Source of the DNA: Deltaproteobacteria bacterium
GTDB lineage: Bacteria; Desulfobacterota; Desulfobacteria; Desulfobacterales; Desulfatibacillaceae
Assembly (NCBI GenBank): GCA_016235345.1
Contig: JACRLG010000021.1
Span: 1-40,633, forward strand
Direction of reading: 5' to 3'
Length of the DNA stretch: 40,633 bases
The stretch's first letter is position 1. Every line of letters starts with the position of its first letter. Made by a program: the position numbers and the translations under genes. The notes under the pieces are model-generated. The model did not search any database and was not told the origin of the DNA. It was given only the letters and a program-made list of their open reading frames with translations. This document shows, piece after piece, positions 894 to 19,632 of the stretch.

Positions 894-922
894 TTGACAA
901 GGCGGCTTATTGGGGCCATATT
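894..922 (+). promoter_or_regulatory. probable sigma70 promoter of the ORP-like operon
   Basis: TTGACA at 894-899 matches the -35 consensus perfectly. With a 17-bp spacer, CATATT at 917-922 gives 4 of 6 matches to the -10 box. The start codon of the DUF134-NifX gene follows at 959 with AGGAGG at 946-951, giving a leader of about 30 nt. No sigma54-type GG-N10-GC element was seen here, although some ORP loci use sigma54. Confidence 0.5.
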
Positions 923-958
923 GATTTTGCTCGTGTGAGCATTACAGGAGGCAAGGCC

Positions 959-1687
959 ATGACCCGACCGAGAAAATGCCGATTCGTGGAAAATTCGCCC
1001 ACGGTGGACTACTTCAAGCCTCGCGGGGTTCCCATGGGCCTTTTGAAAGAGGTCAGGCTCTCGGTGGAAGGCTTCGAGGCACTGAGGCTTTCTGAAATCA
1101 TGGGTCTTGACCAGGACGAAGCGGCGGTACGCATGAAAATTTCCCGCCACACCTTTGGCCGCGTTCTGGCAATGGCGCGGAAGACAGTGGCGGAGGCCGT
1201 GGTTCTTGGCATGGCCCTTCGCATAGAAGGGGGGGCCTTTACGGTGGAAGGCGCGGAAAGCACCTACGAGGTCCCCGGAAAAATGGGCGGAATATGCCGC
1301 ATGGAAGACAAAACCGAAGGATTGGAGAACAGCATGTCCGTGATTGCCATTTCAAGCGAAGGCCCAAGCCTCGACGACCTGGTTGACCCCCGTTTCGGGC
1401 GGGCCGCCGGTTTCGTCATATTCGACACCCAGACGAAGGTTCACAGTTATCTTGACAACGGCTCATCACAGGCCAGGGCCCAGGGAGCGGGAATCCAGGC
1501 TGCCGAAATTGTGGCTGATGCGGAAGCCTCCGTGGTGCTTACCGGCTACGTCGGCCCCAAGGCGTTTCAGGCTCTGACCGCAGTTGGAATTAAGGTGGTG
1601 CAGGATTTGGGCGGAATCACGGTGAGAGAGGCCTTGAGGCGCTGCGCCGAAGGCGGCGTGGAATTCGCCGAAGGCCCTAACAGATAG
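959..1687 (+). CDS. DUF134 (UPF0251) HTH domain fused to NifX-like domain
   Basis: Predicted 242-residue fusion. Residues 1-100 match the DUF134/UPF0251 family: CRFVENSPTVDYFKPRGVPM, then a helix-turn-helix region around 36-80 (LSVEGFEALRLSEIMGLDQD, then the MKISRHTFGRVLAMAR helices). Residues 126-240 form a NifX/NafY-type dinitrogenase cofactor-binding domain (DPRFGRAAGFVIFD, GSSQARAQGAGIQAAEI, TGYVGPKAFQALTAVGIKVV). The start at 959 is chosen over an upstream in-frame GTG at 935 because AGGAGG (946-951) lies 7 bases before it. As first gene of the operon it is a candidate transcriptional regulator that senses a metal-sulfur cluster through its NifX domain. That role is inferred from the fusion and from the ORP-like neighbours. 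Confidence 0.85.
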   Translation: MTRPRKCRFVENSPTVDYFKPRGVPMGLLKEVRLSVEGFEALRLSEIMGLDQDEAAVRMKISRHTFGRVLAMARKTVAEAVVLGMALRIEGGAFTVEGAESTYEVPGKMGGICRMEDKTEGLENSMSVIAISSEGPSLDDLVDPRFGRAAGFVIFDTQTKVHSYLDNGSSQARAQGAGIQAAEIVADAEASVVLTGYVGPKAFQALTAVGIKVVQDLGGITVREALRRCAEGGVEFAEGPNR

Positions 1688-1693
1688 GCTCTT

Positions 1694-1723
1694 TCGCCTG
1701 CCGCTTTGCAGGCGATTTTCGTT
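1694..1723 (+). terminator. intercistronic hairpin, terminator-like
   Basis: TCGCCTGC (1694-1701) and GCAGGCGA (1708-1715) pair over 8 bp with a 6-nt loop, followed by ATTTTCGTTT. It lies in the 53-base gap between the DUF134-NifX gene and the first ATPase gene. It may attenuate transcription so that the regulator is made at a different level from the ATPases. The U-run is interrupted, so any termination is probably partial. Confidence 0.5.
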
Positions 1724-1740
1724 TCGGAAAGGAAACCGGC

Positions 1741-2613
1741 ATGATTGTTGCCGTTGCAAGCGGCAAGGGCGGAACAGGCAAGACCACGGTTTCGGCCTCC
1801 CTGGCCTCGGTCTGGGACAAGGGCGTCACCGCCGTTGACCTGGACGTGGAGGAACCCAACCTTCATCTATTTTTAAAGCCGGAAATCTCCGGGAGCGCCC
1901 CCGCGAACCTCGAAACGCCGGTGGCGGACGAGAGCCTGTGCAATCTGTGCCGGGCCTGCTCGCATTTCTGCCAGTACAAGGCCATCACAGTGATGGGCAA
2001 GATTTTGATGATCTTTCCCGAAATGTGCCACGGCTGCGGAGGCTGCATCGCGGGCTGCCCCCAGAAGGCGCTTTCGGCGGGAAGCCGGGAGCTTGGCGAG
2101 ATTTTATGGGGCAAAAGCGGCAAGATCGATTTCCTCATGGGCCGACTCCGGGTGGGCGAGGCCATGAGCCCACCCCTCATGCGGCTCGTCAAGTCGCGGC
2201 TTTCGGAAATGATTACCGTTCATCCGACGGACGCCATAATCGACTGCCCGCCCGGCGTGAGCTGTCCGGCCATCAATTCGGTGATGGACGCGGACGTGAT
2301 CGTCCTGGTGACGGAGCCCACTCCCTTCGGATTTTATGACTTCAAGCTGGCTATAGAGGCGTTTGCCCCTCTTGAAAAGCCAATGGGCGCTGTCATCAAC
2401 CGGGCAGGAGTGGGGGAAAACAGCGTTTACGGATTCTGCGCGGAAAAGGGCATACCCATCCTGGCGGAAATCCCCTACGACAGGGCCGTTGCGGAGGCCT
2501 ACTCCAAAGGGCTGGTGGTGGCCGAGGCGTCGGAACGGATGAAAACGACCTTCCTGGGCCTTGCGGAAAAAATCCGTGGGCTTGCCGGGGGAAAGGGGGC
2601 TTTCCGTGCCTGA
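1741..2613 (+). CDS. MinD-superfamily P-loop ATPase with inserted ferredoxin domain (first)
   Basis: Predicted 290-residue cytosolic ATPase of the MinD/Mrp/NBP35 superfamily. The deviant Walker A motif SGKGGTGKTT lies at residues 7-16, with the signature Lys at 9 and P-loop Lys at 14. A ferredoxin insert follows: Cys 67, 70, 73, 77 and Cys 96, 99, 102, 106 could ligate two [4Fe-4S] clusters. The first motif ends CSHFC rather than CP. After the insert come IIDCPPGVSCPAINS (Walker B) and VTEPTPFGFYD. The gene overlaps the next one, a paralogue, by 8 bases, suggesting translational coupling and a heteromeric pair. Paired ATPases of this kind beside NifX-like proteins are the hallmark of ORP loci in Desulfovibrio, linked there to a Mo-Cu-sulfide cofactor and cell division. 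That link is transferred by analogy. Confidence 0.9.
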   Translation: MIVAVASGKGGTGKTTVSASLASVWDKGVTAVDLDVEEPNLHLFLKPEISGSAPANLETPVADESLCNLCRACSHFCQYKAITVMGKILMIFPEMCHGCGGCIAGCPQKALSAGSRELGEILWGKSGKIDFLMGRLRVGEAMSPPLMRLVKSRLSEMITVHPTDAIIDCPPGVSCPAINSVMDADVIVLVTEPTPFGFYDFKLAIEAFAPLEKPMGAVINRAGVGENSVYGFCAEKGIPILAEIPYDRAVAEAYSKGLVVAEASERMKTTFLGLAEKIRGLAGGKGAFRA

Positions 2614-3490
2614 GATTGTCATTTTAAGCGGCAAGGGCGGCACCGGCAAGACATCCCTCACCGCAGCCTTCGCGCATCTGGCAAAAAACAAGGTGCTTTG
2701 CGACCTGGACGTGGACGCCCCGGACCTGCATCTTATCCTCAAACCCGAAAACCTTGAAACCGGCGAGTTCTTTTCCGGCAACGAGGCCATCATCAACCAA
2801 AACCTCTGCACTGGCTGCGGCATCTGCCGGGACATGTGCCGCTACGGCGCGGTAAGCGTAACGAACGGTGTTTTTGGAATAAACCCGATAAAATGCGAGG
2901 GGTGCAAGGTATGCGTACATTTCTGCCCCGCCGGGGCCGTGGATTTTCCACAAAGACATTGCGGGCAATGGCGCGTTTCCGAGACCAGATTCGGGGCAAT
3001 GGTTCACGCCCAGCTTTTTCCGGGCTCGGAAAACAGCGGCAAGCTGGTAACTCTTTTGAAGCGCAAGTCCAAGGAACTGGCCAAGGCCAAGGGCCGGGAA
3101 CTCATAATCTGCGACGGCGCGCCGGGAATCGGCTGTCCGGTGATATCGTCCCTTTCGGGAGCGAACCTGGCCGTGGCCGTGACCGAGCCGACACCTTCGG
3201 GCCGCCACGATCTTTTGCGGGTGATGGACCTTTGCAGGCATTTCCGGCTTCCGATGGGAGTGATCGTCAACAAGTGGGACATCAACGGGGAGGAAACCGC
3301 GCTGGTGGAGGATTTATGCGCGGCAAGGGGCGTTAGGATTCTGGGCCGTCTTCCCCACGACCCTGCGGTAACCGGGGCGATGGTGCAGGGCCTTGCTGTA
3401 ACGGAATTCGATCCCGCCGGTTTCGGCAGGCTCGTTAAAGACGTGTTCAACGAGGTCATGGACCTCGCCGGGGTAAAGCAATCCGTCTGA
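2606..3490 (+). CDS. MinD-superfamily P-loop ATPase with inserted ferredoxin domain (second)
   Basis: Predicted 294-residue paralogue of the preceding ATPase. Walker A is SGKGGTGKTS at residues 8-17. The ferredoxin insert has Cys 68, 71, 74, 78 and Cys 97, 100, 103, 107; here the second motif is a classical CxxCxxCxxxCP. Then follow IICDGAPGIGCPVISS and VTEPTPSGRHD, equivalent to the switch regions of the first copy. The GTG at 2606 is preferred over an in-frame ATG at 2561 because the G-rich run at 2587-2599 lies just upstream and the protein then starts directly with the beta strand leading into the P-loop. It overlaps the end of the first ATPase gene. Tandem divergent copies probably act as a heterodimer, with clusters coupling electron transfer or cluster delivery to ATP hydrolysis (inference). 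Confidence 0.9.
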   Translation: MPEIVILSGKGGTGKTSLTAAFAHLAKNKVLCDLDVDAPDLHLILKPENLETGEFFSGNEAIINQNLCTGCGICRDMCRYGAVSVTNGVFGINPIKCEGCKVCVHFCPAGAVDFPQRHCGQWRVSETRFGAMVHAQLFPGSENSGKLVTLLKRKSKELAKAKGRELIICDGAPGIGCPVISSLSGANLAVAVTEPTPSGRHDLLRVMDLCRHFRLPMGVIVNKWDINGEETALVEDLCAARGVRILGRLPHDPAVTGAMVQGLAVTEFDPAGFGRLVKDVFNEVMDLAGVKQSV

Positions 3491-3543
3491 TTCCCATTCA
3501 CCGCCCTTTTGGGCTTTTTTCACGAAACAAAAAGGAGATGTTG

Positions 3544-3933
3544 ATGAACGCACTGGTAGCAATTCCTTCGGTCACGCCCGGAGGACTCAATTCCCCCATC
3601 GGCGCCCATTTCGGACACTGCGACCTCTACACCCTGGTGAAGGTCGAAAACGGAAAAATCGCCGAGGAGCGCGTCATTCCCAACGTTCCCCACCAGCAGG
3701 GCGGCTGCATGGCTCCGGTTCAGCACCTTGCCGGAAACGGCGTGAACCTCCTCATCGCGGGCGGCATGGGATACCGGCCCCTCATGGGCTTCAACCAGGT
3801 CGGCATAGATGTCTTTTTCGGCGGGCAGGCGGCCACCGTGGGCGAGGCCGTAATGGCCTTGATCGAAGGCAGGCTTCCCCGGTTCAGCCAGGAGCACACC
3901 TGCGGCGGCGGCGCAGGCCCCAATCCTCATTAA
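3544..3933 (+). CDS. NifX/ORP-like dinitrogenase cofactor-binding protein
   Basis: Predicted 129-residue single-domain protein of the NifX/NifB-C-terminal (NafY) fold, the size of the orange protein (ORP) of sulfate reducers. Visible family features are IGAHFGHCDLYTLVKV, the loop VPHQQGGCMAPVQHLAG, and GVNLLIAGGMGYRPLMGFNQ followed by GIDVFFGG. The C terminus carries a His/Cys patch (EHTCGGG) that could help bind metal. The start is ATG 3544 because AAAGGAG (3531-3537) is 6 bases upstream; the ATG at 3538 abuts that site. It follows the two ATPases after 53 bases and is the most likely cofactor or cluster carrier of the operon (inference from family and neighbours). Which metal it binds cannot be read from sequence. 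Confidence 0.85.
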   Translation: MNALVAIPSVTPGGLNSPIGAHFGHCDLYTLVKVENGKIAEERVIPNVPHQQGGCMAPVQHLAGNGVNLLIAGGMGYRPLMGFNQVGIDVFFGGQAATVGEAVMALIEGRLPRFSQEHTCGGGAGPNPH

Positions 3934-3982
3934 CAGACCTTCAAAGGAATAATCCGGGCCGGAAGGCCCTTGAGGAGATTTT

Positions 3983-4348
3983 ATGATCAAAATCCTTCTG
4001 GTTTCTTCAAAGCCGGATAATTTCAAAACCCTTGAAAAGGAGCTGCAGACTTACCCGGACGTGGAACTGGCCAAGGCTGAAACGGCGGAAGCCGCCTTGA
4101 AAATCGCGGGCGGGGACAGTTTTCATCTTGCGGTGGTTGATTCCGCACTTTCAGATGCCGACCCCCAAAAGCTCGCGGCGGATTTCATTGCGGTTAACGC
4201 CATGATGAATACGGCGATGGTGAGCGGTCTTTCCGACAACGAGTTCCACGAGAAAACAGAGGGGCTTGGCATACTGATGCGGCTTCCCGAAAAACCGGGG
4301 CCGCATGAGGCCAGGGAACTTCTGGAGACCCTCAAAAGAATAATCTGA
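3983..4348 (+). CDS. pseudo-receiver (response-regulator-like) protein
   Basis: Predicted 121-residue single-domain protein with the alternating beta/alpha pattern of a CheY-like receiver: KILLVSSK (beta 1), ELAKAETAEAALKIA, FHLAVVDSALSDADPQ (beta 3, Asp 53 at the phospho-acceptor position), NTAMVSGLSD (beta 4), ILMRLPEKPG (beta 5). The acidic pair expected after beta 1 is replaced by Ser-Ser, and the conserved Lys-Pro after beta 5 reads Leu-Pro, so phosphorylation is doubtful. The start has GAGGAG about 6 bases upstream. It lies inside the ORP-like operon, 49 bases after the NifX protein, and may be a protein-interaction partner of the ATPases. Function otherwise unknown. Confidence 0.75.
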   Translation: MIKILLVSSKPDNFKTLEKELQTYPDVELAKAETAEAALKIAGGDSFHLAVVDSALSDADPQKLAADFIAVNAMMNTAMVSGLSDNEFHEKTEGLGILMRLPEKPGPHEARELLETLKRII

Positions 4349-4367
4349 AAAATCCCGGAGAAAAGCG

Positions 4368-4616
4368 ATGCCTCTCTACGATTACAAGTGCGCGGATTGC
4401 GGAAAAACAACCGAGGTGCTGACGTCGGGTTCGGATGCTCCGCCCGTATGCGGGGCCTGCGGCGGCTCGCGCATGGAAAGGCTTCTTTCCGCACCGTCCT
4501 CGCTTACCGGCGCGGCCAGAAAAAACATGCCCGGCCCCGGCGACCACACCTGCTGCGGCTCCGAGCCTGGCCACGGAAGCTGCGCGGGCCCAGGGTCCTG
4601 CTGCGGGAAGATATGA
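4368..4616 (+). CDS. FmdB-family zinc-ribbon protein
   Basis: Predicted 82-residue protein beginning MPLYDYKCADCGK, the diagnostic start of the FmdB/CxxC_CxxC_SSSS putative regulatory family. Cys 8, 11, 28 and 31 form one zinc ribbon, followed by MERLLSAPSSL. The C-terminal 25 residues are unusually rich in Cys, Gly and His (HTCCGSEPGHG, then CAGPGSCCGK) and could bind a second metal. GGAG lies about 9 bases upstream of the ATG. It is 19 bases downstream of the pseudo-receiver in the same operon. Family members are often annotated as formamidase regulators without good evidence. The metal-binding potential is what the sequence supports. Confidence 0.85.
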   Translation: MPLYDYKCADCGKTTEVLTSGSDAPPVCGACGGSRMERLLSAPSSLTGAARKNMPGPGDHTCCGSEPGHGSCAGPGSCCGKI

Positions 4617-4744
4617 ATACCGAATTTCACCAAAAACGGTCCGCAGTAAGCCCCGGCCCGTGGAGAGAAACCGGGAGATGGCGCGCGGTCTTCCTCTCGG
4701 ATAAACAGGAAAGGCTTGCCGCGCTGTCAAGATTTGCCGCCTGA
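4613..4744 (+). CDS. possible 43-residue coupled small ORF
   Basis: An ATG at 4613 overlaps the TGA of the FmdB gene (ATGA junction) and opens a 43-codon frame ending at 4744. The product is basic (MNTEFHQKRS start, ALSRFAA end) and matches no family I recognise. The only support is the coupled start. There is no independent Shine-Dalgarno site and no domain, so it may be chance. The rest of 4745-4966 holds no gene, only the inverted repeat at 4870. Confidence 0.3.
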   Translation: MNTEFHQKRSAVSPGPWRETGRWRAVFLSDKQERLAALSRFAA

Positions 4745-9104: not shown

Positions 9105-12100
9105 ATGATGCTAAAAATAGCCGGATGCGATCTGGGCAAGGCGTCTGTGGGTTTTGTCGTGGCCAGCATAAGCGAAGACGGCGTCTTTTCCATCGAGGAA
9201 GCCGAATACAGGGACCACGAGGGCAGGCCCTTCGAGGTCTTTTTGGAATGGTGCGGAAAAAGGGACCTGGGCGGGTTCTGCGCCATGGGTGTAACCGGGC
9301 TCTATGCCGCCGAGTTTTTGCCGCCGGTCCTCGTGCTTCCCGAAGACGCCTGCCGCCAGGCGGTTCTTGAAGAGGATGAAAGCCTTCCCGACGTGATGAA
9401 CCTCGTTTCCGTGGGAGCCAGGGGCTACGGCATCCTTTCCCGGAAACCCGTGGAAAACGGCGGAAAGGGGCGCTTCCAGTACAGGTTCATCGAAAACGAG
9501 AAGTGCTCGTCGGGAACCGGCGAGAACATGAAAAAAATTGCGGCCCGGTTCGGCTTAAGCCTTTCCGAAGCCGACGCCCTGGCAAGCGGGGCGGCCAAGG
9601 CCATACCCATAACCGCCCGCTGCTCGGTGTTCGCAAAAAGCGAAATGACCCATTACGCCAACTCCGGAAAGGCCACGGGCGACCTTTTCGCGGGCTTCTT
9701 CGATTCGGTGGCCAAGAACACGGCGGCGCTTCTTACCCGCAACAAGGTGAACGGCCCGGTTTACCTCATAGGCGGCTGCTCGCGGATAGAATCCTTCGTG
9801 AACGCCCTTAAAAGGTCCGTTGACCAGGAAATCATCCTTCCCGAAAACCGCCTGGTATTCGACGCCCTGGGCGCGGCCCGCATGGCGGCTAACCACGCCC
9901 TGAAAAACCCGGCGTTCCGCCTGCCCAAAGACCCGTCGGCCTTGTTCACCGCAAGCCAAAAGCGCTTCACCGTGCTTTCCCCGGCGGCCCTTCACAAGGA
10001 CAGGGTGACCATGTCTCCGGAAGCCGGAATAGCGGCGGGCTGGGAAAACATTCCGGCTGTCCTGGGTCTCGACCTGGGCTCCACCGGGGCCAAGGCGGTC
10101 CTCACCTCCATCGAAACGGGCGAGCCGCTTTTAGACGTCTACGACCGCACCAGGGGCAACCCCGTGGACGCCAGCCGCAGGCTCATCGCCGCCATTCTGG
10201 AAATGGGCCGCCCGGATATAAGGGCCGTGGGCCTCACCGGCTCCGGGCGCGAGGCCGTGGCCACCCTTGCCAGGGCCGTGTACCCCGAAAAGGGAAGCGT
10301 CTGCGTGTTGAACGAGATAGTGGCCCACGCCACGGCGGCCATAAGAAGCGACCCGGACAGGGGCGCGGACATGTCCATAGTGGAGATAGGCGGCCAGGAC
10401 GCCAAGTACATCCGCATAAGCGGGGGCCGCATAATCGAAAGCGACATGAACAAGGCTTGCAGCGCGGGCACAGGCTCGTTTCTGGAGGAGCAGGCTCTGT
10501 GCTACAACGTAAACGATATCGGTGAGTTCGTCTCCCTTGCCGAAACCGCCCAAAAGCCGCCCGATCTGGGGCAGATGTGCACGGTCTTCATAGCCGATTC
10601 CGGGGCCCAGGCCCTGAAGGACGGCTTTTCCCTGGCCGACATCTTCGCGGGTTTCCAGTATTCGGTTATCAACAATTATCTCAATCGGGTCATGGGCCAG
10701 CGGACCCTTGGGAAAAAGGTGTTCTTCCAGGGCAAGCCCGCAAGCAACCCCTCCCTTGCCTGGACCCTGGCCGCAGTCACCAACCGCGAAATAGTGGTGC
10801 CCGCCAATCCCGGAGCCATGGGGGCCTGGGGAATCGGCATCTGCGCTACGGAACAGGCGGGGGCCGAGGCCCTTCTGGCCGCAAAGCCCCTTGACCCGGA
10901 CCAGTTCCTGGCGGCTGAAATTCTGGAGCGCGGCGAATTCACCTGCAGGGACGGCAAATGCAGGACGCTCTGCCCCATCCAGAAAACCACCATCTCCTAC
11001 AGGGGCGAAAAACTCACGGCAACGTCCGGCGGGGCCTGCCCCAAGTACGAGATCGCGGCCCAGAACCTCGCCAAGATGGAAAAGGACGCGCCAAACCCGT
11101 TCATGGAACGCGACGCGCTTCTTGCTGCCTTTGAAAAGGACATCCCCGGCGCGCCCGTTGTGGCAATCCCCATGACCGGCCCGGTGGGCGGCTACATCCC
11201 CTTTCTGGCGACCCTTGTAACCGAGTTGGGCCATTCCGTGAAGGTGCTGCGTTCAAATTCTTCGTCGCTGGCTCGCGGCGAGCACCTGTGCAACTCCTAC
11301 GATTCCTGCGGGCCGGTGAAAATCGCCCACGCCATATGCGACACGGATGATCCGATCCTCTTTTTTCCCAAGATAATGGATTTTTCCGACAGGTTTGGCC
11401 CCGGAGGCTCGCCATGCGTCACCGAGCAGGCCATGCCGGAAATGGTGGAGGAAACCCTGAAGACCCGGAAAAAGAACGTCCGGGTGATCCGCCCCAAGCT
11501 CCATCTTTTAAAGGGCCTTGACGGCAAAAAGATGGAAAAGGCCCTAAAGCCCCTGGCCGGGGCCCTGAGCGCCGATCCCGCCCTTCTGGGCCCGGCCCTT
11601 TCAAAGGCGAAAGCGGCCCAGGACGCCTATGAAAAGAGCCTCGAGGAAATCGGCCAGAACGCCCTAAAATACGCCAGGGAGAAAAATTTTCCGGCTGTGG
11701 TGGTGTGCGGCTCCCTTCACGTGATCCACGACGTCGCCGCCAATTCCGGCATTCCCGACATTCTGCGCTTGAACGGGGCCATGGCCATTCCGGCGGACTG
11801 CTACCCCATAGCCCCAGGCACACCCGAATTGCACAGGGTCTACTGGGGGGACGCCAACCGGTACATGAGGGCGGCGGTTTCGGCCAGAAACACCGGCGAC
11901 GCCTTTCCCCTCATGCTCTCATCCTTCGGCTGCGGCCCCGCGTCATTCACCGAGCAGGTTTTCCAGTCGCTCCTTGAAGGATACCCCCACACAATACTTG
12001 AAAGCGATGGCCACGGCGGGGCTGCGGGCTTCGTCACCCGAATCCAGGCCTTTTTGCAGTCGGTGCGCCAGTTCCGGGCGGAAACCGGAAAAATTGACCT

Positions 12101-13352
12101 GCCGGACTGTTCCAAGGCCCTGTCCTACATCTCCTCCGGCGGGCATTCCGGGAAATACCTGGACCGGGACATCCGCTACGTGTTTTTCTCCAGCGTGGAT
12201 TACCTGGGCGAGGTGCTGGCCGCAGTTTACCGGTCCTACGGCTATGACGCGGTCTCGGCCCCGCCCGTTTCCGAGCACAACTACACCGAGGGGAAAAAGG
12301 ACTGCTCCGGCAAGGAATGCATGTCCTACCAGCTCATATGGGGGGCATTCAGGGAGTACCTGGAGAAGAACCCGTCCGACAAGCCCACGAGGCTGATGCA
12401 GCTTTCGGGCAGGATGTGCCGGGCGGGCATGTACCCGGTGAAGGACCGCCTTGCCATCGAAAGGATGGGCAGGGACGGCAGCGTGAGCGTGGTCTCCATG
12501 CGCCTGGCGGGCGGGCCGGGCATGGCGGCCAGGACCTCGGCGGGCATAGCGGCCCTGGATATAATACGGCAGCTTTACATCTACCATCTGCCCGTGGAAG
12601 GCGAGCCGGGCGAGGCGAAGCGGCTATACCAAAAATACAGCGGGGAAATACTCGAACTCGTCGAAAGAAAAACCAGGGGCGGAGTAAGGGGCCCGGCGCA
12701 GACCACCTTTCACTGGGCAAGGCTGAACGCCATCGTGGCAAGGGCTTCACGGGACTTTGCCGGGATGGAAAAAAGGAGCGCCGGAAAACCCCGGCCCCTT
12801 TCCACCATTTTCGTTTCCGGGGACCCCATGACAAAGGGCAACGACGTGGCCAACGCGGGCATATTTCAGGTCCTGGGCGACCAGGGGGTGCGGGCCGTGG
12901 TGGAGCCCGCAAGCGACGTGATCGAATATTTCGGTCGCGTGCATCCGGGAATACTGTTCGGACAGAACAGCAAGCCTCTCAAGAACCGCATGTACATAGC
13001 GGCAATGAAGGCCATACGGGAAAGGCTCTACAAAACCGCGCAAAAGTCCAACCCCTGGCTTCCCATGCCCGACATGCCGGCGGCCATAAAACGCGGGGCC
13101 GCCATCATAGACCCCGAAACCAACGGAGCTTCCGGGTACGCGGTGGGCAGCGTCCTCCATCACTGGGACACGGGCGCTTATGACGGCGTTCTCATGACGA
13201 GCTGCTGGGGCTGCGACAACAGCCTGATCGAGGAGAGCCTTCTGCGCCACAACGAGAACATACCATTTTATTTTTACTACGATGACGGAACGCCCCTGGA
13301 TCAGCGGAAGGTGGCGAGCTTCGCCTTCCGCCTGGTCCGCCAGGCGGCCTGA
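9105..13352 (+). CDS. giant 2-hydroxyacyl-CoA dehydratase/benzoyl-CoA reductase-type activase
   Basis: Predicted 1,415-residue protein, the size of the large fused CoA-enzyme activases of anaerobes. Two ASKHA ATPase units follow each other: CDLGKASVGF near residue 9, with a CSSGTGENMKK motif near 134; and LGLDLGSTGAKAV near 323, with NKACSAGTGSF near 453 and GQMCTVF near 492. The Cys of CSAGTG and MC are where HgdC/BadF activases bind an intersubunit [4Fe-4S] cluster. From about 684 comes a DUF2229 region (IPMTGPVGGYIPF), then HgdB/FldB-like sequence (SFGCGPASF near 940, GGHSGKYLDRD, CSGKECMSYQ, CWGCDN near the end). ATP-driven low-potential electron transfer to a radical dehydratase or reductase is the known family role. 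No dehydratase subunits adjoin it, so its partner is elsewhere or the fused C-terminal part acts itself. GAGGAAG precedes the ATG. Confidence 0.9.
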   Translation: MMLKIAGCDLGKASVGFVVASISEDGVFSIEEAEYRDHEGRPFEVFLEWCGKRDLGGFCAMGVTGLYAAEFLPPVLVLPEDACRQAVLEEDESLPDVMNLVSVGARGYGILSRKPVENGGKGRFQYRFIENEKCSSGTGENMKKIAARFGLSLSEADALASGAAKAIPITARCSVFAKSEMTHYANSGKATGDLFAGFFDSVAKNTAALLTRNKVNGPVYLIGGCSRIESFVNALKRSVDQEIILPENRLVFDALGAARMAANHALKNPAFRLPKDPSALFTASQKRFTVLSPAALHKDRVTMSPEAGIAAGWENIPAVLGLDLGSTGAKAVLTSIETGEPLLDVYDRTRGNPVDASRRLIAAILEMGRPDIRAVGLTGSGREAVATLARAVYPEKGSVCVLNEIVAHATAAIRSDPDRGADMSIVEIGGQDAKYIRISGGRIIESDMNKACSAGTGSFLEEQALCYNVNDIGEFVSLAETAQKPPDLGQMCTVFIADSGAQALKDGFSLADIFAGFQYSVINNYLNRVMGQRTLGKKVFFQGKPASNPSLAWTLAAVTNREIVVPANPGAMGAWGIGICATEQAGAEALLAAKPLDPDQFLAAEILERGEFTCRDGKCRTLCPIQKTTISYRGEKLTATSGGACPKYEIAAQNLAKMEKDAPNPFMERDALLAAFEKDIPGAPVVAIPMTGPVGGYIPFLATLVTELGHSVKVLRSNSSSLARGEHLCNSYDSCGPVKIAHAICDTDDPILFFPKIMDFSDRFGPGGSPCVTEQAMPEMVEETLKTRKKNVRVIRPKLHLLKGLDGKKMEKALKPLAGALSADPALLGPALSKAKAAQDAYEKSLEEIGQNALKYAREKNFPAVVVCGSLHVIHDVAANSGIPDILRLNGAMAIPADCYPIAPGTPELHRVYWGDANRYMRAAVSARNTGDAFPLMLSSFGCGPASFTEQVFQSLLEGYPHTILESDGHGGAAGFVTRIQAFLQSVRQFRAETGKIDLPDCSKALSYISSGGHSGKYLDRDIRYVFFSSVDYLGEVLAAVYRSYGYDAVSAPPVSEHNYTEGKKDCSGKECMSYQLIWGAFREYLEKNPSDKPTRLMQLSGRMCRAGMYPVKDRLAIERMGRDGSVSVVSMRLAGGPGMAARTSAGIAALDIIRQLYIYHLPVEGEPGEAKRLYQKYSGEILELVERKTRGGVRGPAQTTFHWARLNAIVARASRDFAGMEKRSAGKPRPLSTIFVSGDPMTKGNDVANAGIFQVLGDQGVRAVVEPASDVIEYFGRVHPGILFGQNSKPLKNRMYIAAMKAIRERLYKTAQKSNPWLPMPDMPAAIKRGAAIIDPETNGASGYAVGSVLHHWDTGAYDGVLMTSCWGCDNSLIEESLLRHNENIPFYFYYDDGTPLDQRKVASFAFRLVRQAA

Positions 13353-13485: not shown

Positions 13486-13583
13486 GCCGGGCTTCGATGT
13501 GGGAAAATCTGGCCGGAAGGAAGGATAGGGTTCATGCCTCCTACTGGAGTGTGCGTAGCACGCGCCTAAAAATAACGGGGGGT

Positions 13584-13606
13584 CCGGGGGGCCATCGGCC
13601 CCCCGG
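13584..13606. terminator. GC-rich hairpin 3' of rodA
   Basis: CCGGGGGGCC (13584-13593) and GGCCCCCCGG (13597-13606) pair over 10 bp with a 3-nt loop. In the minus direction it is followed by CCCCCGTTATTTTTAG, a T-rich stretch fitting termination of the mre-mrdA-rodA transcript, whose last stop is at 13667. In the plus direction GTTTTTG lies 13 bases further on, so it may also end activase transcription. Confidence 0.55.
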
Positions 13607-13666
13607 GAAGCCTTCGGCGTTTTTGCTTATGCTGTTCTGCTTTTACTGTTTTGATTCGGCTTGGCG

Positions 13667-14773
13667 TCAATCGTACGAAAAGCGCCTCATGCCCACGTTT
13701 TGGATCATGCCCACCCCCATCATGGCCACCAGCATGGAGCTGCCGCCGTAGGATATGAACGGGAGCGGCACCCCCACCACTGGCAGGATGCCCATGACCA
13801 TTCCGGTGTTGATGAACACCTGCCAGAAGAAATATGACACCACGCCCACGCAGATGTACGCGCCGAAGGGGTCCTTGGACTGGTATCCGGCATTCAGGCC
13901 CCTCCACAAAAATGCGAAAAAGAGGATTAGGAGGGCCGTGGCCCCCAGGAGCCCCCATTCCTCGGACAGAACCGCGAAAATGAAGTCCGTGTGCTGTTCC
14001 GGCAGAAAGGAAAGGGCCTTCTGGGAGCCTTCCATGTAGCCCTTGCCCGAAAACATCCCGCTGCCTATGGCGATTTTGGACTGGATGATGTGATATCCGG
14101 CTCCCAACGGGTCCCGGTCGGGGTCCAGAAAGGTCTTTATCCGCTCTTTCTGGTAGTCCTTCAGGTTCATGTACAGAAGAGGTAGCGCCACCAGCCCGCA
14201 CGAGACCAGAAAGACCAGGGTGCGCCGCCTTATCCCGGCGTAGAAGGTCATGGAGGCGGCGATGATGGCCATCACCATACCGGTTCCCAGGTCGGGTTGG
14301 GCCAGAATCAGCAGGAAGGGGACAAAAAGCAGGGCCGCCGGAAGGGCTATTTCCCGCAATCCGAGACCGGAGGCCGAGCCCGACCTGGAATAGAAATGGG
14401 CAAGGACTATGACAGCGGTGAGCTTGGCGGTTTCCGAGGGCTGGAAGGCCAGGGGGCCCAAGGATATCCATCTCTGGGAGCCCGACACGGTCTTTCCGAA
14501 CACCAGGACCCAGGCAAGGGACAGCACCGTCAATATGTAGATGATCCAGACCCAACGGTCCATGAAGTGGTAGTGAAAGGAAAAAACAAGGGCCATCACC
14601 ATAAGGCCCAGGCCGAACCAGATTGCCTGCTTTACCGCGAAAATCTGCCCCAGCCCGCGCGCGCCGGGCTCAGCCGCGCTGTAAATGGAGGCCACCCCGA
14701 CCCCGGCCAGGATGAAGACCAGAAGCAGCAGCCACCAGTCGAAATGCGAAACAAGCCTTCTGTCGATCATCAT
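13667..14773 (-). CDS. rodA: rod-shape SEDS peptidoglycan glycosyltransferase RodA
   Basis: Predicted 368-residue polytopic inner-membrane protein of the SEDS family with about ten hydrophobic helices. It polymerises lipid II into glycan strands during cell elongation, together with PBP2. Recognisable segments are LVFGKTVSGSQRWISLGPLAFQPSE (here given as the family landmark GSQRWI...FQPSE), KLTAVIVLAHFYSR, ILAQPDLGTGMVM, YHIIQSKIAIGSGMFSGKG, FLPEQHTDFIFAVLSEEWG and the C-terminal GVPLPFISYGGSSM, which are the conserved catalytic and structural loops. The start ATG overlaps the mrdA stop (ATGA), so the two proteins are translationally coupled. It is the last gene of the five-gene elongasome operon. 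Confidence 0.96.
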   Translation of the reverse strand: MMIDRRLVSHFDWWLLLLVFILAGVGVASIYSAAEPGARGLGQIFAVKQAIWFGLGLMVMALVFSFHYHFMDRWVWIIYILTVLSLAWVLVFGKTVSGSQRWISLGPLAFQPSETAKLTAVIVLAHFYSRSGSASGLGLREIALPAALLFVPFLLILAQPDLGTGMVMAIIAASMTFYAGIRRRTLVFLVSCGLVALPLLYMNLKDYQKERIKTFLDPDRDPLGAGYHIIQSKIAIGSGMFSGKGYMEGSQKALSFLPEQHTDFIFAVLSEEWGLLGATALLILFFAFLWRGLNAGYQSKDPFGAYICVGVVSYFFWQVFINTGMVMGILPVVGVPLPFISYGGSSMLVAMMGVGMIQNVGMRRFSYD

Positions 14774-16722
14774 GGCGATTCCCGCCTTCCCTCGACCGGA
14801 GTGAAGGCCGCAGCCGTGGTGGGAGTGTAAGTCGAAGCCGTGGTGGGGGTGACGCCTGCGGCGGCCTCGGACGGGGCTTTTTCGTCATCTGCGGACGGAT
14901 CGGACATCCTCATGTATTCCAGTATCAAATCCCGCGCAACGGGGGCTGCTGTGGACGCGCCGTGGCCACCGTGCTCCACTATCACGGCCACCGCGATTCC
15001 GGGCAGGCCCTTGGGGGTGCAAAAAGCCGTGAACCACGCGTGATCCTGAAAACGCCTGTGGGAGCTGGTCTGGTTCAGAAAGTTCTCCCTGTCCTTGCGC
15101 CCCACCACCTGGGCCGTGCCGGTCTTGCCGTAAATGCCGTATTTTTCGGACCGGGCGGCCCAGGCGGTTCCGTTTCTTGTGTTGACCACCTCCCAGAGGC
15201 CCTGCTTTATGATGGCGAGGTTTTTGGGGCTTGCGGGAAGGCGGCCCAGAACCTCCGGTACGAAGCGATGGGCCACGGAATGATCCGGCCTTTCCACCCG
15301 CTCCGCCACCTGGGGCCTGTAGAGAACGCCCCCGTTCGCCACCGCAGCCATGAGGGAGGCCATCTGGAGGGGGGTGGCAAGGTTGTAGCCCTGGCCTATG
15401 GCCACGGAGAGGGTCTCGCCCTTTGTCCAGGGGCGGCCCGTGTGCTTCTTCTTCCACTCCATGGTGGGCACAAGCCCCCTGGCCTCGCCGTCCAGGCCGA
15501 TTCCGGTGACCGCCCCCAGGCCCCCCGAACGTGCGTAATAGGCCAGCCGGTCAACTCCAAGCTGCTCCCCCACCCTGTAGCAATAGACGTCGCAGGATTC
15601 GGCCAGGGCCTGCACGGCCTTCACCGGCCCGTGCCCGCCCCGTTTCCAGCACCAGAAATCGCGGTTTCCGAAGGAATAGAAACCGGGGCAGTAGAGCAGG
15701 GTTTCCTGGTTAACCACGCCTTCCTCAAGGCCCGCCATGAGGGTTATGACCTTGTAGGTGGAGCCTGGGGGATAGGCCCCGGAAATGGCCCTGTTGTGCA
15801 TGGGGCGGCGCTCGTCATTCACAAGCCCGGCCCACTGCCGGGCCGTCATGCCGGTGATGAAGAGGTTGGGATCAAAGGAAGGGGTGCTCGCAAGGGCCAG
15901 GACCCTGCCCGAAAATGGGTCCAGGGCCACCACGGCCCCGGTTTCCTCGCCCAGAAGTTCAACTGCCTTTGCCTGGAGCCCGGCGTCCACGGTGAGCCGC
16001 AGGTTGTTTCCGGGCGCCGCCGGAACCGTGCGCATCACGGAAACAACCCTTCCCCTTGCGTCAACTTCCACCTGCCTGCCGCCCTTGCCCCCGGCGAGCT
16101 GGTCCTCGAACATGCGCTCCACGCCTGTCCTGCCCACCATGTCCCCGGCGATTTTCCCCGTGCCGCTCTTTTCCAGCTCCTTTTCCGTTATTTCGCCCAC
16201 GTAGCCCAAAAGGTGGGCAAAGGAGGCCCCAAGGGGAAAGGACCGCTGTGACCTTGTCTGAACGGATATCCCGGCCAGTTCCAGGGAGTGGGCGCTGACG
16301 ATGGCGAGCCGGTCGCGGTCGATGTCGGTCTTTATCACCACCGGTGTGAAAGGGGCCTCCTTTTCCGCCTTCAGGAGCCTGGGGCCCCAGATTTTGAGGT
16401 CGAGATCGAGGTATTCCCTTAAAAGCGGGAAGATGTTCTTTACGGGCTTTGCATCGCTTGGGGTTATGGATACGTCGAAGGAGGGGCGGTTGTCGGCCAG
16501 GACCTGGCCGGTCCGGTCCAGAATCAGTCCCCTGGCGGGGACAACCCTTTGAATCCGCACGCAGTTGTTCTCGCTAAGCCTCGCATATTCCAGGCCGTCC
16601 AGCACCTGGAGCTGGTAGAGGCGCACGAAAAGAACGCACAGCCCGGCCAGGATGAAGACCAGGACCCCCGGAATCCTCCGGCGGCTGTGGTCAGTCCAGT
16701 CTGTCCTGATAACTGTCCCCAA
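14770..16722 (-). CDS. mrdA: penicillin-binding protein 2 (elongasome transpeptidase)
   Basis: Predicted 650-residue class B PBP. A membrane anchor spans about residues 17-36, followed by the pedestal domain (RGLILDRTGQVLADN near 64-78, VGRTGVERMFED near 197-207) and the transpeptidase. Catalytic motifs are complete: STYK with Ser 321 and Lys 324, SCD at 376-378, KTGT at 533-536. It cross-links peptidoglycan in the periplasm with RodA. The tail is a low-complexity Thr/Pro/Ala stretch encoded by an imperfect 24-nt repeat around 14811-14858. The start is a TTG at 16722 without a clear Shine-Dalgarno site, overlapping mreD by 32 bases. No better start precedes the anchor, so translation probably depends on coupling. 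Confidence 0.95.
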   Translation of the reverse strand: MGTVIRTDWTDHSRRRIPGVLVFILAGLCVLFVRLYQLQVLDGLEYARLSENNCVRIQRVVPARGLILDRTGQVLADNRPSFDVSITPSDAKPVKNIFPLLREYLDLDLKIWGPRLLKAEKEAPFTPVVIKTDIDRDRLAIVSAHSLELAGISVQTRSQRSFPLGASFAHLLGYVGEITEKELEKSGTGKIAGDMVGRTGVERMFEDQLAGGKGGRQVEVDARGRVVSVMRTVPAAPGNNLRLTVDAGLQAKAVELLGEETGAVVALDPFSGRVLALASTPSFDPNLFITGMTARQWAGLVNDERRPMHNRAISGAYPPGSTYKVITLMAGLEEGVVNQETLLYCPGFYSFGNRDFWCWKRGGHGPVKAVQALAESCDVYCYRVGEQLGVDRLAYYARSGGLGAVTGIGLDGEARGLVPTMEWKKKHTGRPWTKGETLSVAIGQGYNLATPLQMASLMAAVANGGVLYRPQVAERVERPDHSVAHRFVPEVLGRLPASPKNLAIIKQGLWEVVNTRNGTAWAARSEKYGIYGKTGTAQVVGRKDRENFLNQTSSHRRFQDHAWFTAFCTPKGLPGIAVAVIVEHGGHGASTAAPVARDLILEYMRMSDPSADDEKAPSEAAAGVTPTTASTYTPTTAAAFTPVEGRRESP

Positions 16723-17236
16723 GGTATACGCGAGGCTCCGTCCGGTCCGTGCGACCGTTCATTTTAACGAAAAGTTTCCTCAGCCTGCCGATGATCCACC
16801 AGCCTGCCGGGGCTGCAAAAAAGGCTCCAAGGGCGAGTTCTCCAAAGGAGGGCGCGGCGACCTGCCTTCCGCCAGCCATGAAGGCTGCGGCCACGGAAAA
16901 GTAGAGGCCCTGGACAAGGACCCCGGCTGCCGAGGCCAGGGCCACGAAAAAACCGTTTTCAGCGTCGGCGTAGCCGGGAATCCATGCAAGGGCGATGGCT
17001 ACCCAGAGGTAGACCGTGAAATGAAGCCCGAAGGCCGCGCCGGAAAACGAATCCATCCCTATCCCAAGAATGGCGGCCACAATCACCGACTCCTTTAAGG
17101 GGCGCGAAAGGGCCGTGAACAGCACGTAGAAAAGGCACAGGTTGAGATCGATTCCGAAGGGCAGGGAAAATGGCAGGCGGACGGTGTCGAAGACCAGGAA
17201 GACGAGGCCGAAAAACGAGTGGAATAGAACCTTCAC
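16691..17236 (-). CDS. mreD: rod-shape-determining membrane protein MreD
   Basis: Predicted 181-residue inner-membrane protein with about five hydrophobic helices (FHSFFGLVFLVFDTV; LCLFYVLFTAL; VAAILGIGMDSFSGAAFGLH; YLWVAIALAWIPGY; FAVAL-type and VLVQGLYFSVAAAF segments). The D-S-F/G pattern after the third helix is typical of MreD. The start is GTG 17236, overlapping the mreC TGA by 4 bases (GTGA). The open frame extends 79 codons upstream into mreC, but that part is a shadow of mreC. MreD joins MreC to RodA and PBP2 in the elongasome. The C terminus overlaps the start of mrdA. Confidence 0.9.
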   Translation of the reverse strand: MKVLFHSFFGLVFLVFDTVRLPFSLPFGIDLNLCLFYVLFTALSRPLKESVIVAAILGIGMDSFSGAAFGLHFTVYLWVAIALAWIPGYADAENGFFVALASAAGVLVQGLYFSVAAAFMAGGRQVAAPSFGELALGAFFAAPAGWWIIGRLRKLFVKMNGRTDRTEPRVYLGDSYQDRLD

Positions 17237-18069
17237 GACGTTTCCCAGGTCGGGAGGGCAAGGGCGGAAAAAATCACCAGCACCTCCTCCACCTTTCTGA
17301 AATCCACCATGGGAGTGATGGTTATTTCCTGGAACATGCCCTCTCCCATCATGGAAACCTGGCTCACGGTTCCAAGTGCCAGTCCGGGCGGGAAGAGCCT
17401 GTCCAGGCCGGTTGTGACCACGGTGTCGCCGGGGCTGATGTCCTCCTTGCGGGTCACGTACAGGAAGCGGCAACCCGCCTCCCTTGCACCGGTCACCACT
17501 CCCCTTGCGCGGGTGCGCAGAACCCGCCCGTCCACCGAGTGGTTGGGGTCGGATATCGGCACAACCAGGCTGTAGTGGTCCGAGGCCTGGATCACCCTTC
17601 CCACCAGCCCCGCCGGGGTCACCACGGGAAAGCCCGGCAGGACGCCGTCAGCCTTCCCGCAGTCGATGACGAGGCTTAAAAACCACCTGCCCGGGCCCTC
17701 GCCCACCACCTTGGCGGAAACCGTTGTATAGGCCAGATCGTCCTTTAGGGCAAGCTGGGCCTTGAGTCTTTTATTTTCGTAAATGGCGGCGCGGGTTCTG
17801 TTGATCTCCCCCAGGGCCAAGTCGAGCTTACGGGAGAGCCGGGTGTTTTCACGGCTTGCCGTAACGAGGAAAAAATAGTTGTCCCAGATGGATACGAAAA
17901 AGGAGGTGAACCTGAAGGCGGCCTCCTGGCAGGGCGACACCACGGCCAGCACCGCGCGAGCGGCGGCGGGGGGATTGGCCTTGCTGCGCGCCGATATGGA
18001 TACGATAACGGCGAAGAGCACCATGAAGAAAAGAAGCGCCACGAGGGTGGCCGTCTTGCGCGAGAACAT
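17233..18069 (-). CDS. mreC: rod-shape-determining protein MreC
   Basis: Predicted 278-residue bitopic protein. A single transmembrane helix at about residues 7-25 (TATLVALLFFMVLFAVIVSI) is followed by a coiled-coil segment near 65-110 (NTRLSRKLDLALGEINRTRA...ENKRLKAQL) and the periplasmic MreC beta-domains, with VVTPAGLVGRVIQ and YVTRKEDISPGDTVVTTG as landmarks. It scaffolds PBP2 and RodA on MreB filaments. It is separated from mreB by 225 bases that contain the structured element copy A, whereas the downstream genes overlap tightly. The Shine-Dalgarno site is weak (GGGAAA). Confidence 0.95.
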   Translation of the reverse strand: MFSRKTATLVALLFFMVLFAVIVSISARSKANPPAAARAVLAVVSPCQEAAFRFTSFFVSIWDNYFFLVTASRENTRLSRKLDLALGEINRTRAAIYENKRLKAQLALKDDLAYTTVSAKVVGEGPGRWFLSLVIDCGKADGVLPGFPVVTPAGLVGRVIQASDHYSLVVPISDPNHSVDGRVLRTRARGVVTGAREAGCRFLYVTRKEDISPGDTVVTTGLDRLFPPGLALGTVSQVSMMGEGMFQEITITPMVDFRKVEEVLVIFSALALPTWETS

Positions 18070-18168
18070 TGGCCGTTTCCCGAAATGCCACCCTTGTTCG
18101 GGGCCAAAAATCCGGTCAGTTTGGCCTCACCAGCCAGTTTGGAAAAATTGGTGAAAACAGCTTGATAT

Positions 18169-18294
18169 GCAGCCTGGATAAAAACGATGAAATGCAAGGA
18201 AGATCAAAGCGGGCGGGAAGGAATAGTACTTGTCGTACATGACGACCCGCCCGCTTTGATCTGACACAGCAGTTCGCGTTTTTAGACGGGCTGC
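18169..18294 (-). repeat. structured 3' element, copy A (126 bp), inside the mre operon
   Basis: Ends directly against the mreB stop codon (18295-18297). Outer stem: GCAGCC (18169-18174) with GGCTGC (18289-18294), then AAAAACG (18180-18186) with CGTTTTT (18277-18283). Inner stem: 18202-18217 with 18246-18261, 16 bp perfect. Core: GTAC (18226-18229) and GTAC (18235-18238) around a 5-nt loop. Conserved flanks on the plus strand are CGATGAAATGCAAGGAAG (18185-18202) and TGACACAGCAGTTCGCG (18262-18278). Being between mreB and mreC it should lie on the operon mRNA and could be a processing or attenuation site that sets MreB apart from MreCD-PBP2-RodA. Confidence 0.88.

Positions 18295-19632
<1,338 letters not shown>

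Follow-up and report, generated by a model that had tools for sequence, protein, structure and literature searches.

Why should an Orange Protein (ORP), whose Mo-Cu cluster has no known function according to a 2019 review (PMC6650914), be joined to a DNA-binding domain? The question is raised by an operon of an anaerobic Deltaproteobacteria bacterium of the Desulfatibacillaceae (NCBI GenBank assembly GCA_016235345.1; 4.01 Mb in 36 contigs), found on contig JACRLG010000021.1, the whole of which was analysed and is called the window here (40,633 nucleotides). Its six genes are collinear and tightly packed on the + strand (959-4616), and encode a DUF134-ORP fusion, two ferredoxin-MinD ATPases (A and B), a NifX-type protein, a receiver-like protein that we call a pseudo-receiver, and an FmdB-type zinc ribbon (Table 1). 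The original prediction for this DNA had extended the operon to 4744; the operon is real, but its last stop codon lies at 4616, and 4744 is the end of an overlapping open reading frame (ORF) in another frame (4388-4744). We propose, with a probability of roughly 60%, that DUF134-ORP autoregulates an ATPase-driven metal-cluster system, with the ORP domain reading metal-sulfide status and the pseudo-receiver serving as an adaptor of the ATPases.

The leading gene matches DUF134 (PF02001) in Pfam in full length over residues 2-95 (1e-19; 71.3 bits against a cut-off of 27), and Nitro_FeMo-Co over residues 139-229 (2e-18). In a phmmer search against solved structures, residues 126-242 match the D. 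gigas Orange Protein (PDB 2wfb) at 2e-40, and the C-terminal domain is 62% identical to it over 113 residues. Judged by this similarity, what follows the DUF134 helix-turn-helix is the Orange Protein itself; the original prediction of a DUF134 domain fused to a NifX domain thus stands for the fusion and fails for the generic NifX label. Together with the two ferredoxin-MinD ATPases recognized by Pfam, this makes the locus one of the orange-protein type, as had been supposed. The product of 3541-3933, by the same kind of comparison, is a generic NifX-type protein distinct from the Orange Protein, with 1o13/1t3v as its nearest solved structures (~1e-10) and an ORP match of only 0.014. An AlphaFold2 model of DUF134-ORP (predicted local distance difference test, pLDDT, 83.5) has a helical DUF134 domain, a linker below 50 (disordered) and a well-predicted ORP part.

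The fusion recurs. Near full-length DUF134-ORP proteins occur in 14 of the 194 genomes of the order, its own included (E < 1e-60), with one further, more distant match (G026, 8e-39), and outside the fusion-bearing genomes DUF134 and ORP are separate genes. In one family of the phylum (f94; loci L214, L215, L218 and L219), the partner of DUF134 in the fusion is a NifX-type domain, and the gene is placed after that of the pseudo-receiver. Across 87 nonredundant DUF134 genes, a metal-binding module is attached in 56, being CxxC-CxxC in 33, ORP in 19 and NifX in 4. At one locus, a single open frame encodes DUF134 and a pseudo-receiver and is followed by ATPase A (L277, 1087-1758).

The predicted operator of DUF134-ORP is the dyad TTGCTCGTGTGAGCAT, which lies over the predicted transcription start and whose core, TGCTCN4GAGCA, occurs at a single place in the 4.01-Mb genome. 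The promoter beside it scores 10/12 against the consensus, although the scan alone does not rise above chance (2 found; shuffles 1.3 ± 1.1). The DNA preceding 29 genes for DUF134 or DUF134-ORP, drawn from 17 loci, was compared by dyad counting and promoter-anchored palindrome scores, used in place of an expectation-maximization (EM) motif search. Of these 29 regions, 27 contain TTGAC and 21 the full TTGACA, with dyads ~24 bp before and ~30 bp after the element. Over 27 regions, mean palindromicity was 5.37 at the upstream position against 4.50 ± 0.19 in shuffled sequence, and 5.56 at the downstream position against 4.26 ± 0.20, with none of 500 shuffles as high at either; in the stand-alone DUF134 subset the upstream site was weaker (8/500 shuffles as high). 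The pattern GAGN6CTC appears in the last 60 bp before 16 of 40 further DUF134 genes (shuffle mean 0.2, maximum 3), and in 26 of these 40 an ORF that encodes the deviant Walker motif GKGG(V/T)GK(S/T) follows within 700 bp. That DUF134 binds dyads beside its own promoter is strongly supported by these comparisons of sequence. The idea of a self-regulated variant, for which the original prediction had singled out 894-958 as the region to be bound, gains support as well, with the predicted operator falling inside that region.

Which dyad is present appears to follow the recognition helix of the protein. Among 47 nonredundant DUF134 genes, 21 gave a scorable pair of helix and dyad, and the dyad type tracks the helix in all 21: xTFGR helices go with GAGC dyads (10/10), and xTFSR or xTFCR helices with GAAC/GAAA dyads (11/11; p 2.8e-6). 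This p value, like those given below, is too small because of shared ancestry. Exceptions in architecture obey the helix, since a fused protein with PTFSR has a GAAC dyad (L240) and two stand-alone proteins with xTFGR have GAGC dyads (L051, L159). Helices with histidine go with the order GCTC-N4-GAGC in 4/4 cases (the window, L098, L121 and L221), and the others with a GARC-first order in 17/17 (p 1.7e-4); the reverse A-type order, GTTC-N4-GAAC, was found in 0/29 and 0/40 upstream regions. In family f94, the DUF134-NifX gene, which has a histidine helix, closes the cluster at its 3′ end. The cluster opens with the ORP gene, and GCTC-N4-GAGC is found ahead of it in L215, L218 and L219 but not in L214, hence in three nonredundant loci out of four (L217 nearly duplicates L215). 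A further locus, L216, has the dyad and no DUF134 gene in its stretch.

The pseudo-receiver matches Response_reg (PF00072) at E 0.0028 and 18.2 bits, under the cut-off of 30.2. Ser8 and Ser9 replace the acidic pair and the conserved Lys is gone, as the original prediction had stated; the acceptor-type Asp53 and Ser81, which it did not mention, are kept. In an alignment of 61 pseudo-receivers, Asp53 and Ser81 are found in 58, the two acids of the Mg2+-binding pair in none, and the Lys before the β5 Pro is lost, with L, I, F or H at column 101 in 61/61. Since the acidic pair is absent from all 61, ordinary Mg-dependent phosphorylation is unlikely. Part of the invariance of the family motif HExSEGLG in this alignment is built in, since the motif served as the pattern of the collection scan; in a 25-row set gathered without the motif, H89, E93, G94, L95 and G96 are invariant. 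The model has a (βα)5 receiver fold (pLDDT 95.2), with the motif in α4 and the α4-β5 loop. Its nearest solved folds are receivers, among them, at Foldseek rank 3, the receiver-like domain of CpaE (4dn6; TM score 0.79), which is not among the best 50 VIA-align matches listed. Neither Pfam nor NCBIfam has a dedicated family for it; 56 of the 61 match Response_reg only, and the window member matches none at 0.001. By sequence, the pseudo-receivers with HExSEGLG look like an undescribed family. At L046 (8581-9387; same genes as L244), a NifU-like domain and a pseudo-receiver share one open frame.

A search of 59 relatives with the receiver gave matches in 33, some of them generic receivers, with the ATPases around most. 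Scanning 84,980 genomes with the family pattern yielded 213 relatives, of which 80 were kept, and the commonest order is receiver, ATPase A, ATPase B, NifX, ORP (31/80). We retained 63 of 120 loci as well covered (nonredundant receivers, at least 60 bits, at least 4.5 kb on both sides), a set that does not include the window itself, where the receiver is 4.0 kb away from the start of the contig. Both ATPases stand on the same strand within 6 kb of the pseudo-receiver in 56 of the 63, and the same loci have a NifX-type gene in 60, ORP in 59, a NifU-like gene in 25 and FmdB in 17. In a phylum sample of 395 genomes, the family is present in 47 (E 1e-15 or better; others match as generic receivers), and ATPase A in 234, including all 47. 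The FmdB protein passes the NCBIfam cut-off for the FmdB zinc ribbon (TIGR02605; 55.7 bits against 31.3), and its Cys-rich tail, already noticed in the original prediction, is conserved: CCG...PGSCCG ends 34 of 38 nonredundant FmdB proteins, and in 34 of 40 loci FmdB has a same-strand core gene no more than 1 kb away. The small genes, whose absence from the company of the ATPases in related genomes would have spoken against the original prediction, are therefore co-conserved with them. The operon is more than a chance assembly, as the same genes recur together in many genomes.

The original prediction had noted no sigma54 activator, and two motifs and one profile indeed find none in the 40.6-kb window. 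A strict dyad precedes the first labelled cluster gene in 10/25 clusters with DUF134, 0/38 with a same-strand sigma54 activator and 3/49 with neither (10/25 against the remaining 3/87: p 1.1e-5). Counting same-strand upstream activators in the 63 loci gives 25 with the activator only, 14 with DUF134 only, 1 with both and 23 with neither (p 0.002). On either strand within 5 kb, the well-covered loci give 33, 12, 2 and 16, respectively (p 0.0006), and all 120 loci give 49, 20, 4 and 47 (p 0.003). In 4 of 24 DUF134 clusters, a sigma54 activator gene stands on the opposite strand within 5 kb, and the mutual exclusion is a tendency, not a rule. A sigma54 promoter for the operon was sought and not found, the window promoter fitting sigma70. 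A simple sigma54 promoter pattern was seen upstream of 1/38 clusters with the activator, 1/25 with DUF134 and 3/49 with neither, a test of low power because the pattern matched few clusters of any class.

Several points weigh against the proposed operator and adaptor. The operator patterns were defined after inspecting the same upstream regions, and the genomes are related, not independent. When the patterns were fixed and applied to the 40 further genes, a set that includes members of ORP-type clusters, 5 genes agreed, one (L267) was mixed, with both types, 1 had an unclassified helix with a G-type dyad and 33 were unscorable; one G-helix gene also carries a GAA-type dyad. The 17-bp consensus TGAGCATATGCTCATAA, matched at 13 or more of 17 positions just before the start codon of 29 of the 40 further stand-alone DUF134 genes (L263-L302), was written after viewing those genes. 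A general palindromic EM motif search recovered a TGATCATATGATCA-like motif from the fused set alone; in the other two of the three sets, stand-alone and pooled, it settled on GC-rich stretches and missed the motif. In the window, the downstream dyad is present and a clear second, upstream one is not (best 4/8 pairs), and the strict dyad is absent from 15 of the 25 DUF134 clusters. Finally, in 7 of the 63 loci (L036, L109, L125, L165, L220, L223 and L224) neither ATPase A nor ATPase B occurs up to 6 kb from the pseudo-receiver; MrpORP is present in L125 and L165. The pseudo-receiver at L109 (7508-8257) is accompanied on its strand, up to a distance of 6 kb, by an MBL-fold gene alone and by no core gene.

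How might the operon work? DUF134-ORP most likely represses its own operon through the predicted dyad, a direction suggested by position, since the dyad overlaps the predicted start site. The ORP domain would bind a metal-sulfide cluster (Mo-Cu-S in D. gigas ORP), the loading of which would alter DNA binding, and the operon would be made when such clusters or their metals are short, or else in excess, as either sign would fit. Loading as the signal is suggested by the fusion itself, by the metal-binding modules joined to DUF134 in 56/87 genes and by the known cluster of ORP (PMC6345978 and PMC6650914). Given their ferredoxin inserts and neighbouring genes, the two ATPases may build metal-sulfur clusters or transport them; the NifX-type and FmdB proteins would probably carry metals or clusters and, in relatives, a NifU-like scaffold would often add to assembly. 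The pseudo-receiver would be a phosphorylation-independent adaptor binding both ATPases, an idea drawn from CpaE/TadZ, where an atypical receiver works with a MinD-type ATPase (PMC13170226). More tentatively, the Orange Protein in general could be a sensor of metal sulfide (thiomolybdate or Mo-Cu-S), acting here as the effector domain of DUF134-ORP whose loading sets the level of the cluster-assembly system, and elsewhere as a stand-alone protein acting on DUF134 or on the sigma54 activator.

A somewhat doubtful alternative keeps DUF134 as the regulator and denies ORP the role of sensor: the fusion would fix the ratio of the two or store DNA-bound ORP, and the signal would arrive through the Cys residues of DUF134 or a partner. 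The linker is long and predicted to be disordered, and many loci encode DUF134 by itself, its tail being short or rich in Arg/Gly in 31 of the 87 genes; such stand-alone DUF134 with dyads indicates that DUF134 can have an operator without an ORP domain. Against this, the joining of DUF134 to ORP, NifX or CxxC-CxxC modules resembles a swap of sensor domains, and on the ORP-domain tree, which is poorly resolved (61 of 122 branches open), the fused state needs at least 3 changes on well-supported branches and 11 at fewest on the tree as drawn.

Comparably doubtful is a role of the pseudo-receiver in transcription control, in which it would bind the sigma54 activator or DUF134 and relay a signal without phosphorylation. 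Its gene often comes directly behind one for a PAS-sigma54 activator, a fusion of it to DUF134 exists in L277, and the protein retains Asp53 and Ser81 almost throughout. However, the lack of the acidic pair in all 61 sequences speaks against ordinary phosphorylation, and its regulators vary: among the 63 loci, a same-strand sigma54 activator is present in 26, DUF134 in 15 (one with both) and neither in 23. Its steady partners are the ATPases, both found in 56/63 loci.

Division-site placement in the manner of MinD, with metal binding secondary, is an improbable primary function. The ATPases are of the MinD type with a deviant Walker A motif, the C-terminal stretch of ATPase B is amphipathic (hydrophobic moment rank 4 of 284 windows), and for the D. 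vulgaris ORP complex a part in division has been put forward in two papers (PMC4672049, PMC6345978), the second of which also reports MrpORP as polar. The conserved neighbours, however, are metal-cluster genes (ORP, NifX, NifU-like, FmdB), and the same texts term the division role putative or a hypothesis awaiting confirmation. A reading of the fusion, receiver and FmdB as incidental additions to an ordinary ORP operon is very hard to credit, for although the core of two ATPases and ORP is a known system and ATPase A is far more widespread than the receiver (234 against 47 of the 395 genomes), the pairing of pseudo-receiver with both ATPases, the tail and position of FmdB, and the recurrence of the fusion in the order all contradict it.

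Table 1. Features of the operon and its promoter region (positions in the window).
Feature	Position	Strand	Basis or remark
TTGACA, -35 element of a sigma70-type promoter	894..899	+	consensus scan
CATATT, -10 element	917..922	+	consensus scan
Predicted DUF134-ORP operator, dyad over predicted transcription start	927..942	+	dyad and palindromicity comparison
AGGAGG ribosome-binding site	946..951	+	read from sequence
DUF134-ORP fusion, 242 aa	959..1687	+	DUF134 residues 2-95, disordered linker ~94-125, Orange Protein domain 126-242
Recognition-helix segment SRHTFGR, residues 62-68	1142..1162	+	covaries with operator type
MinD-type P-loop ATPase A, inserted 2[4Fe-4S] ferredoxin (Orp3/Orp4 type)	1741..2613	+	CbiA + Fer4 (Pfam)
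MinD-type P-loop ATPase B, inserted 2[4Fe-4S] ferredoxin; GTG start, overlaps gene A	2606..3490	+	CbiA + Fer4 (Pfam)
NifX-family protein, HFGHCD motif, CGGG tail	3541..3933	+	Nitro_FeMo-Co 8e-19 (Pfam)
Pseudo-receiver (REC-like), without acidic pair or conserved Lys, HExTEGLG motif	3983..4348	+	alignment, fold model
FmdB-type zinc ribbon, conserved Cys tail CCG...PGSCCG	4368..4616	+	Zn_ribbon_8 6e-14 (Pfam)

Elsewhere in the window, an inverted repeat of 27 nt (96% complementary, 19-nt loop; 784-856) lies between a divergent methyltransferase gene and the operon. It was considered as an operator and rejected, being well upstream of the promoter, present at a single place in the genome and without a tie to DUF134. 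Genes on the - strand at 13566-19335 resemble the cell-shape genes rodA, mrdA, mreD, mreC and mreB, and a 1415-aa ORF at 9105-13352 resembles acyl-CoA dehydratase activase, both by eye.

To our knowledge, no operator or function is known for DUF134/UPF0251 (PF02001). None of the listed titles on DUF134 or UPF0251 concerns the function of the family, and no paper naming DUF134 with 'dinitrogenase iron-molybdenum cofactor' was found in a search that most subscription papers lie outside, and which is therefore no proof. The ORP system, ORP and DUF134 were already known; novelty seems to lie in the DUF134-ORP fusion as an autoregulator, in the operator code and in the family of pseudo-receivers. 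A natural fusion of ORP to a DNA-binding domain with a specific predicted operator makes the role of ORP directly testable, DUF134, a widespread family of unknown function, now has a binding site predicted for it along with a helix-base code, and a conserved pseudo-receiver is added to the list of MinD-ATPase partners.

Among known systems, the nearest is the ORP complex of D. vulgaris Hildenborough (Orp3, Orp4, Orp5, Orp8 and Orp9), which, as described in PMC6345978, likewise combines an Orange Protein of the Orp8 type with a pair of ferredoxin-MinD ATPases at a single locus, and in which MrpORP (Orp9) hands Fe-S clusters to Orp3-Orp4-Orp8. The window operon is without MrpORP; no match above the NF041136 cut-off occurs in its genome, 3 of 21 genomes have one, and a NifU-like gene is present elsewhere in its own genome. 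Conversely, a pseudo-receiver was found in 0/15 MrpORP loci of family f94, the kind nearest the D. vulgaris locus, 13 of which yielded labels. The D. vulgaris locus also differs in its sigma54 activator (DVU2106; PMC3897727), which has no counterpart in the window, while the window has a pseudo-receiver and an ORP fused to DUF134. The FmdB protein is a candidate counterpart of the small [2Fe-2S] protein Orp5 (DVU2105). Compared with ordinary receivers (PF00072), the pseudo-receiver shares the fold and the positions of Asp53 and Ser81, and has lost the acidic pair and the conserved Lys family-wide. With CpaE/TadZ (PMC13170226) it shares the partnership of a receiver fold with a MinD/ParA-type ATPase; there the two are in one protein, whereas in the window they are separate genes, the receiver bears the HExSEGLG family motif and the ATPases carry ferredoxin inserts. 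Finally, the D. gigas Orange Protein (2wfb) is matched by a domain that, in the window, sits behind a DUF134 helix-turn-helix.

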